DNA of 43,983 nt from Acidimicrobiales bacterium (lineage in GTDB: Bacteria > Actinomycetota > Acidimicrobiia > Acidimicrobiales > Bog-793): assembly GCA_035533595.1 (NCBI GenBank), contig DATLTN010000070.1, positions 1 to 43,983 on the forward strand, given 5' to 3'. A program made the translations under genes and the position numbers. The notes under the pieces were generated by a model. It did no database searches, was not told the origin of the DNA, and saw only the letters and a list, made by a program, of their open reading frames with translations. Numbering within the stretch: the stretch's first letter is position 1; every line of letters starts with the position of its first letter. Positions 10,569 through 28,153 of the stretch are shown one piece after another.

Positions 10569-12266
10569 ATGAGCACCGAGACCACGCCGCCGGCCAACCT
10601 GAAGATCCGCAGCCACGAGGTCACCGACGGCCCGCGGCGCGCCGCGGCGCGGGCGATGCTGCGCGCCGTCGGGATGCGCGACGAGGACTTCGACAAGCCG
10701 CAGATCGGCATCGCTTCGACCTGGAACGAGGTCACACCCTGCAACCTCTCGCTGGCGCGCCTCGCGCACCGCGCGAAGGACGGGGTGCGCGCCGCGGGCG
10801 GCTTCCCCCTCGAGTTCGGGACGATCACCGTCTCGGACGGCATCTCGATGGGCCACGAGGGGATGCGGGCCTCGCTCGTCAGCCGCGAGGTGATCACCGA
10901 CTCGGTGGAGACCGTGATGCACGCCGAGCGCTTCGACGGCTTCATCGGCCTCGCCGGTTGCGACAAGTCGCTCCCGGCGATGCTGATGGCGGCGGCGCGC
11001 CTCGATCTGCCGATGGTCTTCGTCTACGCGGGGACGATCCTCCCCGGCCACTGGCGCGACCAGACCCTCGACGTGGTGAGCGTCTTCGAGGCGATCGGCG
11101 CGCACGCCGCAGGGCAGATCGACGACGAGACGCTCTACCAGATCGAGCGCAACGCCTGTCCCGGCGAGGGCGCCTGCGCCGGCATGTTCACGGCGAACAC
11201 GATGGCGGCGATCGGCGAGGCGATCGGGATGTCGCTGCCCGCGGGAGCCTCGGCGCCGGCCGTCGACCGCCGTCGCGACGACAACGCCTTCGACTCCGGC
11301 AGGGCCGTGATCGGCCTCCTCGAGAAGGGCATCCGCCCCCGCCAGATCATGACCCGCGCCGCCTTTGAGAACGCGATCGCCGTGACGATGGCGCTCGGCG
11401 GCTCCACCAACGCCGTGCTGCACCTGCTCGCGATCGCCGCCGAGGCCCACGTCGACCTCTCGATCGACGACTTCGCCCGCATCGGGGCGCGCGTCCCGCA
11501 CCTCGCGGACATGAAGCCGCACGGCAAGTTCCACATGGTCGACCTCGACCGCGTCGGTGGCCTCCCCGTGGTCTTGAAGGCGCTCCTCGACGCCGGCCAC
11601 CTGAACGGTGACTGCCTCACCGTCACCGGCTCGACGCTCGGGGAGAACATCGAGCGCCTCGACCCGCCGGCCCCGGACGGGGTCGTCGTCCACCCCCTCG
11701 AGGCGCCGATCCACCGCCGCGGCGGCATCGTCATCCTCCGGGGGTCGCTCGCGCCCGCGGGGGCGGTCGTGAAGATCGCCGGCACCGACCTCATGCGTTT
11801 CGAGGGCACGGCGCGGGTCTTCGACGGGGAGGACGGCGCGATGGACGCGATCCTCGCCGGCTCGGTCGTGCCGGGCACGGTGCTCGTCATCCGCTACGAG
11901 GGGCCGAAGGGGGGCCCGGGGATGCGCGAGATGCTCGCCGTCACCGGGGCGCTCACCGGGGCGGGGCGCGGCGGCGACTGCGCCCTCATCACCGACGGCC
12001 GCTTCTCGGGTGGGACGCGCGGCTTCTGCGTCGGCCACGTCGCCCCCGAGGCGAGCGTCGGTGGCCCGATCGCCTTCGTCGCCGACGGCGACCGCATCGT
12101 GATCGACGCCGAGAACGGCTCGATCGAGCTGCTCGTGGACGAGGCCGAGCTCGACCGGCGCCGAGAGCGCTTCGACCCGCCGCCGCCCCGCTACACCTTC
12201 GGCGTGCTCGCCAAGTACGCCCGCCTCGTCACCGGCGCCGAGCGGGGCGCGATCACCGAGGCCTGA
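10569..12266 (+). CDS. ilvD: dihydroxy-acid dehydratase
   Basis: 565 residues, full length. It dehydrates 2,3-dihydroxy-isovalerate and -methylvalerate to the keto acids in valine and isoleucine synthesis. Iron-sulfur ligands are visible as Cys58 (EVTPCNLSL), Cys131 ([13 protein letters not shown]) and Cys203 ([14 protein letters not shown]). Substrate and Mg2+ regions ([30 protein letters not shown]) are intact, as is the C-terminal [19 protein letters not shown]. It is monocistronic upstream of ilvBNC, which has its own promoter and attenuator. No attenuator is seen before ilvD itself. Confidence 0.98.
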
Positions 12267-12273
12267 GGACGGC

Positions 12274-12302
12274 TTTACAGTGGCGCGGCGGGCTGGCAAG
12301 AT
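12274..12302 (+). promoter_or_regulatory. promoter of the ilvBNC operon
   Basis: TTTACA (12274-12279), a 17-nt spacer and CAAGAT (12297-12302). The predicted start of transcription is at or beside 12310, which is the GTG of the leader peptide. Confidence 0.6.
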
Positions 12303-12309
12303 CGGGGCC

Positions 12310-12348
12310 GTGACTGTTTCGCCCGCGCACCTGGTAGTCCTTACGTAG
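12310..12348 (+). CDS. ilvBNC leader peptide VTVSPAHLVVLT
   Basis: Thirteen codons including stop: GTG ACT GTT TCG CCC GCG, CAC CTG GTA GTC CTT, ACG TAG. Four successive branched-chain codons (Leu Val Val Leu) precede the last residue, and two of them (GTA, CTT) are codons the neighbouring genes use rarely. It is followed at once by a hairpin and an intrinsic terminator. Stalling of the ribosome on uncharged Leu or Val tRNA would prevent the terminator from forming. The GTG is probably at +1, so the peptide would be translated from a leaderless RNA. Confidence 0.7.
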   Translation: MTVSPAHLVVLT

Positions 12349-12371
12349 CAACGACGGCATCTCCGTCGTTG
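12349..12371 (+). promoter_or_regulatory. pause/antiterminator-region hairpin of the ilvBNC attenuator
   Basis: Perfect 9-bp stem CAACGACGG/CCGTCGTTG with loop CATCT, starting one base after the leader stop codon. Its location between leader peptide and terminator matches the first stem of classical attenuators. Confidence 0.65.
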
Positions 12372-12377
12372 CCCCGC

Positions 12378-12406
12378 GGCCTCCCGAAAGGGAGGTCGTT
12401 TTGTTT
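12378..12406 (+). terminator. intrinsic terminator of the ilvBNC attenuator
   Basis: Stem GGCCTCCC/GGGAGGTC (one G-U pair) closed by a GAAA loop, followed by GTTTTGTTT. It lies 87 nt before the ilvB start, between leader peptide and gene, so it serves as a conditional terminator. Confidence 0.75.
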
Positions 12407-12492
12407 CCCCGGAGCGCCCTCCGGGACGCGGAGCCCGAGACCCAGCCAACCCATCGACCGACACGACGAGGGAACAGGAAGGAGTGGAGCGA

Positions 12493-19950: not shown

Positions 19951-21204
19951 ATGACAGGTATGCGAGCCTCACCTCACACCGCTCCCGCCGTCGGGCGCGA
20001 ACTTGCCCGCCTCTCACGGCGCGTCGCGTCGGTTTCACCCTCCGCGACGCTCGCGATCGACGCCAAGGCCAAGGCGATGAAGGCGCAGGGCCTCGACGTC
20101 GTCGGCTTCGGCGCGGGGGAGCCGGACTTCCCGACCCCCGCGACGATCGTCGAGGCGGCGGCGAAGGCCTGCTTCGACACCGTGAACCACCGTTACACCC
20201 CCACCCAGGGCCTCCCCGAGCTGCGCGAGGCGATCGTCGAGAAGACGCGGCGCGACTCCGGCCTTGTGATCAGCGCCGCCGAGGTGCTCGTCACCAACGG
20301 CGCCAAGCACGCGATCGCGAACGCCTTCGCCGCGCTCCTCGACCCCGGTGACGAGGTGCTCATCCCGGCGCCGTACTGGACGACCTACCCCGAGTCGGTG
20401 CGCCTCGCGGGCGGCGTGCCGATCGAGATCCCGACCGGCACCGCGAGCGGCTTCAAGGTCACCCCCGCGGAGCTCGAGGAGCACTTGAGCGAGCGCACCA
20501 AGGTGCTGCTCTTCGTCTCCCCCTCGAACCCGACGGGCGCGGTCTACAGCGAGGCGGAGATGACCGAGATCGGCCAGTTCGCGCTGGAGCACGGCCTGTT
20601 CGTGCTCACCGACGAGATCTACGAGCACCTCGTGTACGGCGAGGCCACCCAGCACTCCCTCCCGGTGCTTGTCCCCGAGCTCGCCGAGCGCTGCGTCGTG
20701 GTGAACGGCGTCGCCAAGACCTACGCGATGACCGGTTGGCGGGTGGGGTGGATGATCGGCCCCCGCGACCTCGTCGACGGCGCGACCAACCTGCAGAGCC
20801 ACGAGACCTCCAACGTCGACAACGTCGCCCAGCGGGCGGCGGAGTGCGCGCTGCGCGGCGACCTCTCCGCGGTGGCCGAGATGCGCACCGCCTTCGACCG
20901 CCGGCGCCTCATCATCCACACGATGCTGAACGAGGTCGCCGGCACCGAGTGCCTGCTGCCCGAGGGCGCCTTCTACGCCTTCCCGAGCTTCGAGGGCCTG
21001 CTCCACAAGGAGATCCGCGGCCACCGCCCCGCCACCACGCTCGAGCTCGCCGCCGTCGCGCTCGAGGAGGCGAAGGTCGCCTTCGTGCCGGGCGAGGCCT
21101 TCGGCGCCCCCGGCTACGCCCGCTTCTCCTACGCCCTCTCCGACGAGGAGATGATCGAGGGGGTGCGCCGCCTCGGCGAGCTGTTCGCCGACGCCCGGGA
21201 CTGA
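19951..21204 (+). CDS. pyridoxal phosphate aminotransferase, class I (aspartate type)
   Basis: 417 residues from ATG 19951, with ATG 19960 ([10 protein letters not shown]) equally possible. It is a fold-type I aminotransferase of the bacterial AspC Ib group. [10 protein letters not shown] is the substrate-binding N-terminal motif. The Asn/Asp/Tyr cofactor residues are in [19 protein letters not shown] and [14 protein letters not shown]. The Schiff-base Lys is in [20 protein letters not shown]. Arg386-type carboxylate binding is in [10 protein letters not shown]. It probably makes aspartate from oxaloacetate, but an alanine or keto-acid role is not excluded. Only 61 bases separate it from divergent serC, and serA follows 83 nt downstream. 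Confidence 0.92.
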
Positions 21205-21287
21205 CCCCGGCCGCCGGGAGCCCCTAATCCCGACTGGCGATCGACCCCGCCGTCGGTTTTCATGCCCGTAGTCGACAGGAGAGCGCA

Positions 21288-22850
21288 ATGACCCGGATCC
21301 TCGTGACCGAGAAACTGGCCGACAACGGCCTGCAGGCGATGGCGGCGGCCGGCTACGAGGTCGACGTGCAGCTCGACCTCACCCCCGAGAGTCTGCTGCA
21401 GGCGATCGCCGGCGCGGCCGCCCTCGTGGTCCGCTCGGCGACGAAGGTGACCGCGGACGTCCTCGAGGCGGGGCGTGACCTGCAGGTCGTCGGCCGCGCC
21501 GGCGTCGGCCTCGACAACGTCGACGTCGAGGCGGCGACGCGCGTCGGGGTGATGGTCGTGAACGCCCCGGAGTCGAACATCCTCTCGGCCGCGGAGCACG
21601 CCTTCGGGCTGATGCTCGCGCAGGCCCGCAACATCCCCCAGGCCCACTCGGCGCTCGTCGCCGGCCGCTGGGAGCGCTCCAAGTGGGAGGGCGTCGAGCT
21701 GCACGGCAAGACGCTCGGCGTCGTCGGCCTCGGCCGTATCGGCGCCCTCGTCGCGCAGCGCGCGCTCGCCTTCGGGATGCGCCTCATCGCCTACGACCCG
21801 TACATCTCCGAGGAGCGGGCCAAGCGCATGGGCGTCGAGCTGATGACCCTCGACGGCCTCGTCGCCGCGGCGGACTTCATCACCATCCACCTCCCGAAGA
21901 CCAAGGAGACGACCGGTCTCTTCAACGCCGAGATGCTCGCCAAGTGCAAGCCCGGCGTGCGCCTCGTGAACGCGGCGCGTGGTGGGCTCATCGAGGAGCA
22001 GGCGCTCGCCGACGCGATCGTCTCCGGCCACGTGGGCGGGGCGGCGATCGACGTCTTCGACGCCGAGCCGACCACCGAGTCTCCGCTCTTCGCGATCCCG
22101 AGCGTCGTCGTCACCCCCCACCTCGGCGCCTCCACCGAGGAGGCACAGGACAAGGCGGGCGAGCAGATCGCCGAGCAGATCGTCCTCGCGCTGCGCGGCG
22201 ACTTCGTGCCCTACGCGGTGAACATCGCGGCCCGCGGCGCCTCCGAGGCGGTCCGCCCCTTCCTCGGTGTCGCCGAGAAGCTCGGCCGCTTCCTCGCCGC
22301 GCTCTGCGGCAGCCTCCCCGAAACTCTCGAGGTCGAGTACCAGGGCGAGCTCGCCGGCGAGGACACCTCGATCCTCACGCTCTCGGTGCTGAAGGGCTTC
22401 TTCGCCGCCGCGAGCGAGGAGCCCGTCTCCTATGTGAACGCCCCCCGCCTCGCCGAGGAGCGGGGCCTCGCGGTGCGCGAGAGCCAGACGACCACCTCGG
22501 ACCGGGTGAACCTCATCGTCGTGAGCGCCGCCGCGCACTCCGTCGCCGGCACGCTCTCCGGGGAGGGGGCGGCGCGCATCGTCTCGGTCGACGCCCACGA
22601 GGTCGAGGTGCCCTCGGCCGAGCACATGCTCATCGTTCGCAACGACGACCGCCCCGGCATGATCGGCGTCGTCGGCACGGCGGTCGGCGCGGCAGGGATC
22701 AGTATCTCCAACATGGCCGTCGGGCAGAGCCCGACCGGCGGCACCGCCCTCATGGTGCTCGCCCTCGACCGCCCCCTCGACGACGCGGCGCGCGCCGCGC
22801 TCTCGGGCGCCCCGGGGATCCTCGACCTGCACCTCGTCTCGGGGGTCTGA
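21288..22850 (+). CDS. serA: D-3-phosphoglycerate dehydrogenase
   Basis: 520 residues, ATG with AGGAG upstream. It catalyses the first step of serine synthesis. The NAD-binding motif is VVGLGRIGALVAQRALAFGM. The catalytic Arg is in VNAARGGLIEE, the Glu lies downstream in DVFDAEPTTESPLF, and the His is in VVTPHLGASTEEAQDKA. After the catalytic part come the intervening ASB domain (about 315-445) and a C-terminal ACT domain (LIVRNDDRPGMIGVVGTAVG), the long type I form found in mycobacteria, where serine inhibits through ACT. With serC and the aminotransferase it forms a serine module inside the BCAA cluster. Confidence 0.97.
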   Translation: MTRILVTEKLADNGLQAMAAAGYEVDVQLDLTPESLLQAIAGAAALVVRSATKVTADVLEAGRDLQVVGRAGVGLDNVDVEAATRVGVMVVNAPESNILSAAEHAFGLMLAQARNIPQAHSALVAGRWERSKWEGVELHGKTLGVVGLGRIGALVAQRALAFGMRLIAYDPYISEERAKRMGVELMTLDGLVAAADFITIHLPKTKETTGLFNAEMLAKCKPGVRLVNAARGGLIEEQALADAIVSGHVGGAAIDVFDAEPTTESPLFAIPSVVVTPHLGASTEEAQDKAGEQIAEQIVLALRGDFVPYAVNIAARGASEAVRPFLGVAEKLGRFLAALCGSLPETLEVEYQGELAGEDTSILTLSVLKGFFAAASEEPVSYVNAPRLAEERGLAVRESQTTTSDRVNLIVVSAAAHSVAGTLSGEGAARIVSVDAHEVEVPSAEHMLIVRNDDRPGMIGVVGTAVGAAGISISNMAVGQSPTGGTALMVLALDRPLDDAARAALSGAPGILDLHLVSGV

Positions 22851-22857
22851 GCGCCGC

Positions 22858-22910
22858 CCCCTCGGGAGCGCGAGGTCCCGGCCGGCAGCCGCCGGTCGCG
22901 GCCCGAGGGG
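22858..22910 (+). terminator. long-range hairpin after serA
   Basis: Arms CCCCTCGGG (22858-22866) and CCCGAGGGG (22902-22910) enclose a second GC-rich palindromic stretch (CCGGC...GCCGG). It begins 8 nt after the serA stop. There is no T-run, so termination is only a guess. Confidence 0.45.
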
Positions 22911-22929
22911 AAGTTCATCCTCTCGGCGC

Positions 22930-23088
22930 GCGAGGTCGTAACCTCGCTTGCAGGGATGTTGTTGCGGCGCGGGAAATGTTCTTGCCGCGCCGTACATCTC
23001 TATGAGGGCAGGGCCAAGCCGAAGGGTGTCGAGCCCTGCAGTTGAACCGAAGGGACAACGCCGATCTCGACTGAGCCTGCCAGTCGGC
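22930..23088 (+). promoter_or_regulatory. hairpin-rich leader before the c-di-GMP gene
   Basis: Successive inverted repeats are visible: GCGAGGT/ACCTCGC (22930-22947, loop CGTA); CGGCGCGG/CCGCGCCG (22965-22992); GCAGGG/CCCTGC (23008-23039); GTTG/CAAC (23041-23059), with the putative ribosome binding site AGGGA in its loop; and CGACT/AGTCG (23068-23086), alternating with GCCGA/TCGGC (23060-23088) over the putative start. The conserved GEMM (c-di-GMP-I) core is not present. No known riboswitch class is recognised. Confidence 0.45.
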
Positions 23089-26000
23089 GCGAACGGCTCC
23101 TCGTCCTCGACGAGGAGGCCCGTCTCGACGCGCTCCGGTGGCGGCTCCCCGAGAGCGTCGAGCTCCTCGTCGCGGGCACCGTCGAGGAGGCGCTCGGCGC
23201 CGCGCACGAGTGGCTCCTCGACGTCGACCTCGTCGTCATCGCCCTCGGCGCTCCCGGCGAGCATGCCTTCGACGCCGTGGTGGACCTCGCGGTCGCCCTC
23301 CCGGGAACGGGGATCGTCGTCGCGGCCGAGGACCCCGAGCTGCGCGCCGAGGCGCTCGCGCGCGGCTGCGTCGGCGCGTGCTCGTTCGCCGAGCTCGCAG
23401 GCGAGGAGGGCGGGGAGCGCGTCGCGTCGGCCCTCGCGGCGCGCGACCTGCACGACCAGTGGGGGGCGCGCTTCGCGCAGATGCGCACGCTCTTCGGTTC
23501 GCTCGACCTCGGCATCGTCGTCATCTCGCCGACCGGGCGGGTCGTCGTCGCCAACCTCCTCGCCAACGAGCTCGTCGGCACGCCACGCGCCGACCTCCTC
23601 TACCGCCGCGACCCCGACCTCGGCCTGAAGACCCTCGCGGGCAACGAAGTGACCCCCGAGGAGCGGATCGTCGAGCAGGTGCTCGCCACCGGCCGCCCCT
23701 CCGAGCCGGCGCAGCGGGTGGTCCGCCTCCCGAACGGCGGGGACCGCATCCTCGAGGTGCGCGCCGCCCCCGTCGCGGCGCCCGCCGGCCCGGGGGCGAT
23801 GGCGGTCGTCATCACCGGCCGCGACGTCACCGAGCAGCTGACGGTGCAGCGCGCGCTGCTCTCCGCGGAGCGGCGCGACAGCCTGCTCCTCGAGCACGCC
23901 GCCGAGGGCTACCTCGTGCTCGACGAGCACGGCCACGTCACCGAGGCGAGCCCGACCCTCAACCGCTACTACCCGGCGGAGTGGCTGCTCGGGATCGACG
24001 CCCGCCTCCTGCTGCACGCCGAGGAGCGCGAGCGTGCGGCTGCGATGTTCGCCGCGGTGCGCGAGCGCGCCGGCGTGCCCGTGCGCGCCGAGCTGCGCTT
24101 CGTCGACCGTGACGGCGAGGAGCGGTGGGCGGAGCTCACGATGACGAACCGCCTCGCGGAGGCCTCGATCGGCGGGATCGTCCTCAACCTGCGCGACATC
24201 ACCGAGCGCAAGCTCGCCGAGCAGTCGATGGCGCAGCTCTCGGCGATCGTCGAGTTCTCCGAGGACGCGATCATCGCCGAGACCCTCGACGGCACGATCA
24301 CCGCCTGGAACCCGGCCTCGGCCCGCCTCTACGGCTACTCCGCCGCCGAGGCGATCGGCCGACTCTCGATGGAGCTCATCGTGCCCTCGGCGCGCCGCGC
24401 CGAGCTGCAGGAGATCTGGGACCGCATCCGCCGCGGCGAGCACGTCGAGCGCCGCGACTCGCTGCGCGTCCGCAAAGACGGCACCCGGGTCGTCGTCTCG
24501 CTGCACGTCTCGCCCGTCTTCAACGCCAACGGCCAGCTCGTCGGGACCTCGACGATCGCCCGCGACGTCTCCGAGCGCCGTCGCCTCGAGGAGGAGCGCT
24601 CGATGTTCGAGGAGCGCTTCCGGATCGGCTTTGAGCAGGGGGCGATCGGCATGGCGATGCTCGACCTGCGTCGCCGCTTCACGCGCGTCAACAAGGCGCT
24701 GTGCACGATGCTCGGCCGCACCGAGGAGGAGCTCATCGGGCACGTGGTCGAGACCTTCGTCCACCCCTTCGAGATCGAGCTCGCGATCCAGGCCTCCTCC
24801 GCCCAGGTCGTGGGCGGGGTCGACCACTTCCACGGAGAGCGCCGCTACCTGCGCAAGGACGGGACCGACGTCTGGGCGACCGTCGACTCGACCGTCGTGC
24901 GCCAGCCCGACGGCTCGCCGATCTACGTCTTCTCCCAGCTCCAGGACATCACCGACCGCAAGCGCTCCGAGCAGGCGCTCGCCCACCAGGCGCTGCACGA
25001 CGCGCTCACGGGGCTGCCGAACCGGGCGCTCCTCGGCGACCGCCTCGGTCAGGCGATCGACCGTGGCCACCGCAACGTGACCCAGGTCGCCCTGCTCTTC
25101 CTCGACCTCGACCGCTTCAAGCTCGTGAACGACGGCCTCGGCCACGCGGCGGGCGACCGCCTCCTCGTCGATATCGGCGAGCGCCTCGTCGGCTCGCTGC
25201 GGCGCTCGGACACCGTCGCCCGCTTCGGCGGCGACGAGTTCATCGTGATGCGCGAGGACGTCGACGCCACCGAGGCGGTCGACCTCGGCGACAAGGTGAT
25301 CGGCCTGTTCCAGGAGGCCTTCGTCCTCGACGGCGTGGAGCTGCACGTCTCGACCTCCTGCGGCGTCGTCCTCGTCACCGGCGACACGACGGTCGACGAG
25401 GCGCTGCGCGACGCGGACGCCGCGATGTACCGCGCAAAGGAGCGCGGTGGGGCGCGCGTCGAGCTCTTCAACCCCGAGCTCCGGCGCGCCGTCTCCCAGC
25501 GCTTCGACCTCGAGCGGGCGCTCGCCTTCGCGATCGAGCGCAACGAGTTCCGCGTCGTCTACCAGCCCATCGTCTCGCTAGAGGACGGGCACCTCGTCGG
25601 CACCGAGGCGCTCGTGCGCTGGGAGCAGCCGCAGTGGGGGCTGCTCCACCCGGCCGAGTTCATCCCCGCCGCCGAGGAGACGGGGCACATCGCGGCAATC
25701 GGCGCCTTCGTGCTGCGCGAGGCGCTCTCGCAGGTGATGCGCTGGCGCGAGGGGCTGCCCGGCTCGGAGGGGCTGTGGGTCTCGGTGAACCTCTCCTCCC
25801 GCCAGCTCGCCCTCGCCGACCCCGTCGAGCTCTCGGCCTTCGCGCTCCGCGAGGCCGACGCGCCGCCGGACGCGCTCCGCCTCGAGCTCACCGAGTCGGC
25901 GGTCATGGAGGACGTCGACGCGGCGATCTCGCTCTTGCGCCAGCTACGCCTGCTCGGGATCAAGATCGCGATCGACGACTTCGGGACGGGCCACTCCTCG

Positions 26001-26291
26001 CTCAGCTACCTCTCGCGGCTGCCGATCTCGTCGCTCAAGATCGACCACTCCTTCGTCTGGGCGCTCGGCCCGGCGCTCGAGGACTCGGCGATCGTGCGGG
26101 CGATCATCTCCCTCGCCGACACGCTGAGCATCGAGCCCTGCGCCGAGGGCGTCGAGACCGAGGAGCAGCGGCAGGTGCTGAGCGAGCTCGGCTGCAACCT
26201 CGCGCAGGGCTTCCTCTTCGCCGCGCCGATGGCGCCCGAGGAGTTCGAGGCCTGGCAGCGGGGGAGGGTGGCGCCGGCCGGCGTCGCCTGA
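23064..26291 (+). CDS. REC-like/PAS/GGDEF/EAL cyclic-di-GMP signalling protein with apparent AUC start
   Basis: Domains in order: a degenerate receiver-like domain (about 9-130, no phospho-acceptor Asp; it reads DLVVIALGAPG), a PAS-like region near 140, another near 275, clear PAS domains near 392 (IVEFSEDAIIAETLDGTITA) and 515 (RFRIGFEQGAIGMAMLDLRR), GGDEF from about 641, then EAL. GGDEF is intact (ARFGGDEFIVM) with an RRSD inhibitory I-site five residues before it. EAL is intact (TEALVRWEQ, ELTESAVMED, IDDFGTGHSSLSYL, CAEGVETEEQ). Both synthesis and hydrolysis of c-di-GMP are possible. No ATG, GTG, TTG or CTG exists in frame between the stop at 23043 and the GTG at 23277, yet coding clearly extends upstream. 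ATC 23064 (ISTEPASRRERLLVLDEE) has AGGGA 8 nt before it. The conservative start is GTG 23277 (1004 residues). No transmembrane segment is seen. Confidence 0.85.
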   Translation: MSTEPASRRERLLVLDEEARLDALRWRLPESVELLVAGTVEEALGAAHEWLLDVDLVVIALGAPGEHAFDAVVDLAVALPGTGIVVAAEDPELRAEALARGCVGACSFAELAGEEGGERVASALAARDLHDQWGARFAQMRTLFGSLDLGIVVISPTGRVVVANLLANELVGTPRADLLYRRDPDLGLKTLAGNEVTPEERIVEQVLATGRPSEPAQRVVRLPNGGDRILEVRAAPVAAPAGPGAMAVVITGRDVTEQLTVQRALLSAERRDSLLLEHAAEGYLVLDEHGHVTEASPTLNRYYPAEWLLGIDARLLLHAEERERAAAMFAAVRERAGVPVRAELRFVDRDGEERWAELTMTNRLAEASIGGIVLNLRDITERKLAEQSMAQLSAIVEFSEDAIIAETLDGTITAWNPASARLYGYSAAEAIGRLSMELIVPSARRAELQEIWDRIRRGEHVERRDSLRVRKDGTRVVVSLHVSPVFNANGQLVGTSTIARDVSERRRLEEERSMFEERFRIGFEQGAIGMAMLDLRRRFTRVNKALCTMLGRTEEELIGHVVETFVHPFEIELAIQASSAQVVGGVDHFHGERRYLRKDGTDVWATVDSTVVRQPDGSPIYVFSQLQDITDRKRSEQALAHQALHDALTGLPNRALLGDRLGQAIDRGHRNVTQVALLFLDLDRFKLVNDGLGHAAGDRLLVDIGERLVGSLRRSDTVARFGGDEFIVMREDVDATEAVDLGDKVIGLFQEAFVLDGVELHVSTSCGVVLVTGDTTVDEALRDADAAMYRAKERGGARVELFNPELRRAVSQRFDLERALAFAIERNEFRVVYQPIVSLEDGHLVGTEALVRWEQPQWGLLHPAEFIPAAEETGHIAAIGAFVLREALSQVMRWREGLPGSEGLWVSVNLSSRQLALADPVELSAFALREADAPPDALRLELTESAVMEDVDAAISLLRQLRLLGIKIAIDDFGTGHSSLSYLSRLPISSLKIDHSFVWALGPALEDSAIVRAIISLADTLSIEPCAEGVETEEQRQVLSELGCNLAQGFLFAAPMAPEEFEAWQRGRVAPAGVA

Positions 26292-26310: not shown

Positions 26311-28153
<1,843 letters not shown>

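Follow-up and report, generated by a model that had tools for sequence, protein, structure and literature searches.

The gene for a c-di-GMP enzyme in this acidimicrobial genome probably starts its translation at an AUC codon, read as ATC at 23064, and we propose that it does so at a low rate and under the restraint of IF3. The window, meaning the whole 43,983-nucleotide stretch of DNA that was analysed, corresponds to contig C70 in a genome of 2.79 Mb that was assembled in 73 contigs and is 96% complete. The gene lies in an open frame on the plus strand (23046-26291) that is uninterrupted over 1081 codons; its product has several PAS domains, a GGDEF domain (PF00990, 139.5 bits against a cut-off of 23.8) and an EAL domain (PF00563, 234.1 bits against a cut-off of 31.3). 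The features on which the argument turns are the following:

21288..22850, plus strand: upstream neighbour, phosphoglycerate-dehydrogenase-like (serA), a synteny marker from the neighbour comparison
23002..23004, plus strand: ATG in another frame, suggested earlier as a frameshift entry; the frame is not coding-like
23043..23045, plus strand: TGA, in-frame stop and upstream bound of the open frame
23051..23055, plus strand: AGGGA, probable Shine-Dalgarno sequence inside GAAGGGAC; -5.3 kcal/mol to an assumed 16S tail, ordinary strength
23058..23060, plus strand: ACG, near-cognate and the sole alternative in place; it follows AGGGA by 2 nt, which is too close
23064..23066, plus strand: ATC, probable start codon (sequence, orthologue, infC precedent, matrix)
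23064..26291, plus strand: REC-like/PAS/GGDEF/EAL protein, probable coding sequence with its stop codon (domains, homology, predicted fold)
23088..23495, plus strand: receiver-like domain and the next helix, residues 9-144 after the ATC (structure prediction)
23277..23279, plus strand: GTG, first in-frame canonical codon, within helix 3 of the receiver-like domain (sequence, structure prediction)
24990..25451, plus strand: GGDEF domain (Pfam profile)
25515..26228, plus strand: EAL domain (Pfam profile)

The landmarks named in the sequence-only reading of this DNA are all borne out: the in-frame TGA, the ATC with AGGGA 8 nt upstream of it, the out-of-frame ATG at 23002, and the lack of a usual start. 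Across the 77 codons from 23046 to 23276 there is no in-frame ATG, GTG, TTG or CTG; the first canonical codons are GTG 23277 and GTG 23280, and the only codons one base away from ATG in that stretch are ACG 23058, ATC 23064 and ATC 23238. That reading had also let coding sequence with normal GC3 extend up to the stop, which holds down to about 23097 but not further. Between 23097 and 23276 the signal is clear (GC3 in 57 of 60 codons, +54.1 bits) and downstream of GTG 23277 it continues (982 of 1004), whereas the 11 codons from the ATC onwards (23064-23096; 7 of 11, -10.7 bits) are not coding-like by themselves, and the score of 23046-23063 is negative too (4 of 6, -4.1 bits). N-termini often have atypical codons.

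To place this signal in the genome, we took 20 stretches of 20 kb together with the window, chose 219 long genes by their codon-position composition and scored each for coding signal upstream of its first canonical start. The c-di-GMP gene ranks first, with 54.1 bits against 14.8 for the runner-up; by eye, ranks two to four resemble fragments or shadow ORFs that face other genes, and of the six genes read besides this one several look like shadow ORFs. A first canonical start at least 60 codons past the upstream stop occurs in 21 of the 219 genes and is thus not rare in itself. The rare feature is coding signal over such a stretch, not the long distance. Two further observations concern unusual frames in this genome. 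On contig C72 (locus L107, minus strand, 11324-12436), a recF-like gene has no usual start before a GTG at codon 21, which falls inside the expected first strand; translation more probably begins at a CTG, either that of codon 13 or that of codon 16. In the window, a minus-strand open frame of 1405 codons (21129-25346) opposite the serA-like and c-di-GMP genes resembles a high-GC shadow frame rather than a gene.

The protein encoded upstream of GTG 23277 has both a predicted fold and a homologue. A structure predicted from the single sequence of 23064-23510 (mean pLDDT 69) has a receiver-like alternating fold in which beta1 comprises residues 9-15 after the ATC, and receiver domains make up most of its best matches among solved structures (top E 1.8e-5, TM-score 0.64); Rho GTPases also occur, at lower ranks. 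According to this prediction, the part upstream of GTG 23277 encodes beta1 to beta3 of a degenerate receiver domain. The window protein has no match to Pfam Response_reg, and an Ala (23241-23243) occupies, after beta3, the alignment column of the phospho-acceptor Asp (VVVD) of the homologue in genome G003. The domain is therefore probably a pseudo-receiver in which Ala appears to replace the phospho-acceptor. The protein match to the orthologue in genome G012 begins at frame residue 14 (E 5.7e-15); with the G012 protein as query, it begins at residue 10 of that query. Taken together, coding signal, fold and homology place the real start between the stop and about 23088, and the candidates there are ATC 23064 and ACG 23058; no other near-cognate codon is in place.

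The immediate surroundings of ATC 23064 are unremarkable in Shine-Dalgarno strength. Energies were computed against an assumed 16S tail rather than one read from this genome, and on that scale the -5.3 kcal/mol of the window is equalled or bettered by 20% of 6000 sampled ATC sites. Strength as sole proof was discarded, given this frequency and the fact that only 29% of 154 canonical starts computed for the sample reach the value. A matrix was built from 18 infC starts and applied to 11420 ATC sites: ATC 23064 ranks 59th on the upstream part and 13th once the downstream part is added. Its upstream score is -0.8, whereas 16 of the 18 infC starts score 9.9 to 27.7 when left out in turn, two fall below -0.8, and the ATC of G012 scores -13. 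The context from -35 to +20 is open, with 16% of 300 ATC contexts in the window equally or less folded.

Comparison with relatives covered 35 genomes of the family, including the window genome, which is the sole one of its genus among them. The N-terminal 275 residues find a match at E 0.001 or better in six of the 35, its own included. Searches with the window protein gave no close relatives in genome_contigs or viral_contigs, and a query with the G012 protein returned G012 alone. In G012, G013 and G010 the gene has the same two neighbours, a serA-like and an isopropylmalate-synthase-like gene, and we treated these three as syntenic orthologues. The latter neighbour (26311-28005) lies on the minus strand in the window and in the serA direction in the three relatives, a local rearrangement. 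G012, a metagenome-derived Acidimicrobiaceae isolate (bog_793, PLPK01000018) of the same family as the window genome, has an ATC 5 nt after the near-perfect Shine-Dalgarno sequence AAGGAGGG (-11.2 kcal/mol, a value attained at 0.35% of 6000 ATC sites); a TTG follows three codons past this ATC, 15 nt from the same Shine-Dalgarno sequence. In G013 a CTG stands 5 nt after CAGGGGGC (-9.4 kcal/mol, reached by 2.8% of 6000 CTG sites). The striking Shine-Dalgarno contexts are thus those of G012 and G013, not that of the window itself. The sequence-only reading had proposed to look for an ATG at this codon in homologues, and the outcome is mixed: G010 has a GTG at the first strand and the more distant G003, G008, G021 and G112 have an ATG within reach. 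With a usual start within reach in five of seven homologues, the idea of a non-canonical start throughout the family was rejected.

A positive control for AUC initiation is provided by infC, which was found in 32 of the 35 family genomes. In the 30 loci read (L122-L151), the apparent start is ATC in 27 and ATA in three, at Shine-Dalgarno distance and just before the conserved domain. Six of these loci have a usual codon farther upstream, without a good Shine-Dalgarno sequence; the other 24 have none anywhere from the preceding stop to the point where the profile match begins. The infC of the window genome itself (L130) has an ATC with a Shine-Dalgarno sequence of -8.1 at 8 nt and no usual start upstream of the conserved domain. 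The three ATA cases (G014, G025, G031) all belong to one genus (g15). In PMC5472188, infC is described as starting with ATC in Streptomyces and with ATT in E. coli. AUC thus very probably serves as a start codon in this lineage, as the infC starts seen here and that of Streptomyces indicate.

Several other readings have to be weighed against an AUC start. It is very unlikely that the product is merely a short protein begun at GTG 23277 or 23280, without the complete receiver-like domain, or that ribosomes enter by frameshift from ATG 23002. GTG 23277 is indeed the first canonical codon and the ATG does exist, but coding signal, homology and fold all lie upstream of 23277. GTG 23277 as main start is ruled out because the upstream part encodes beta1 to beta3 of the receiver-like domain, and a start there only, which had been kept as an outcome that would overturn the AUC start, is also contradicted by the homology from residue 14. 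The frameshift that the sequence-only reading offered as one of its three options is disfavoured, since the 32 codons scored in the frame of ATG 23002 sum to -35 bits, and no counterpart was seen in G012. Initiation at ACG 23058 deserves scarcely any credence: the codon keeps the frame and differs from ATG by one base, but it leaves only 2 nt after AGGGA, its computed pairing is -3.4 at 4 nt, and G012 has no ACG at the corresponding place.

The strongest rival to the AUC start is an error of sequencing or assembly: the true start would be an ordinary one, masked by an indel or a miscalled base somewhere from an upstream usual codon to 23097. We consider this unlikely. The genome is a draft, and a frame-broken GGDEF gene on another contig (L023) demonstrates that indels or pseudogenes occur in it; moreover, ATG 23002 and a TTG at 23042 sit in the other frames. 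However, the ATG frame is not coding-like, as given above, the TTG frame stops after 10 codons, and the unrelated assembly of G012 has ATC at the same place. A recent mutation of an ordinary start to ATC, which would leave the gene silent or nearly so with a body not yet decayed, is distinctly unlikely. The case is a single genome in its genus, most homologues keep a usual start and ATC is one base from ATG, but the open frame and its third-position composition downstream of GTG 23277 are intact, and the ATC recurs in G012. This recurrence weakens the mutated or misread ATG and the indel alike, both of which keep a low probability. The rare AUC start is probable and the best supported of the three options originally offered, on account of the infC precedent, the ATC of G012 and the presence of only ACG as a rival codon.

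Searches of the leader for other kinds of control gave little. A riboswitch or structured leader, suggested by inverted repeats seen by eye in 23006-23090, was rejected: the fold has a z-score of -0.90, and 39 of 200 shuffled sequences fold as well or better. Rfam has no match in the window over the gathering score and only weak, implausible ones in 22840-23300, and no sigma-70 promoter or terminator motif was detected in 22700-23400. There is no second copy of the leader in the genome (the best hit after the leader itself spans 17 bases, E 0.14), and a DNA search of 60 relatives gave short matches only, mostly of the codon-bias type.

Under the AUC reading, AGGGA 8 nt upstream would place the ribosome on AUC 23064 in an open context, the initiator tRNA would mispair at the third codon position, and IF3 would reject most of the resulting initiation complexes. 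Synthesis of the enzyme would then be slow and would speed up as free IF3 declines, a scheme modelled on infC and on sigR of Streptomyces. We infer each of these elements, that is, the ribosome start, the low rate, the IF3 dependence and the link to physiology. As a scale, CUG initiation amounts to 0.86% of AUG initiation in E. coli, as quoted in PMC11497404; the literature searched gave no value for AUC. A wider proposal, that in some Acidimicrobiaceae-type bacteria an AUC start shared with infC puts a c-di-GMP enzyme under IF3 so that the amount of free IF3, and with it ribosome status, sets its level, is doubtful at present. The titles and abstracts searched, with incomplete journal coverage, report no AUC start, either in a gene for a c-di-GMP enzyme or in infC from this group of bacteria. 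Should the AUC start be real, the enzyme would be scarce and sensitive to IF3, and a second-messenger enzyme would join the very few bacterial genes whose level depends on start-codon discrimination. For annotation, the gene would be trimmed to GTG 23277 and lose its N-terminal sensor domain, because ATG, GTG and TTG are generally the only starts that gene callers allow.

Compared with other GGDEF/EAL genes of the same genome, which have the same domain types, the gene stands apart. In 13 of 16 paralogous loci a usual start lies at most 53 codons from the upstream stop or locus end, and no more than 4.7 bits of coding signal precede it. In L010 the usual start is codon 166, preceded by 1.5 bits, and in L022 it is codon 85, preceded by 0 bits; in L023 no usual start comes ahead of the match, and the frame appears broken. 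The GGDEF gene of L023 (G000:C42:67-3330) can be read only by changing frame, and the GGDEF motif itself is split, pointing to a pseudogene or assembly indels.

With infC the gene has in common an AUC at Shine-Dalgarno distance and no usual start in place. The difference is that the infC product is the very factor that discriminates and infC regulates itself, whereas here the product is a c-di-GMP enzyme and the Shine-Dalgarno sequence is weaker. The other parallel is sigR of Streptomyces, which in PMC5472188 is reported to start with GTC and to be repressed by IF3. There the GTC is found in 32 of 34 species and was proven by mutagenesis and N-terminal sequencing, while the ATC described here is a start predicted from sequence, with ATC in G012 and CTG or usual codons in the other homologues; sigR also has an extensive Shine-Dalgarno sequence, AGGAGGTG, where the c-di-GMP gene has an ordinary one. 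Like sigR, the c-di-GMP gene would be an actinobacterial regulatory gene whose product stays scarce because IF3 rejects its start codon.
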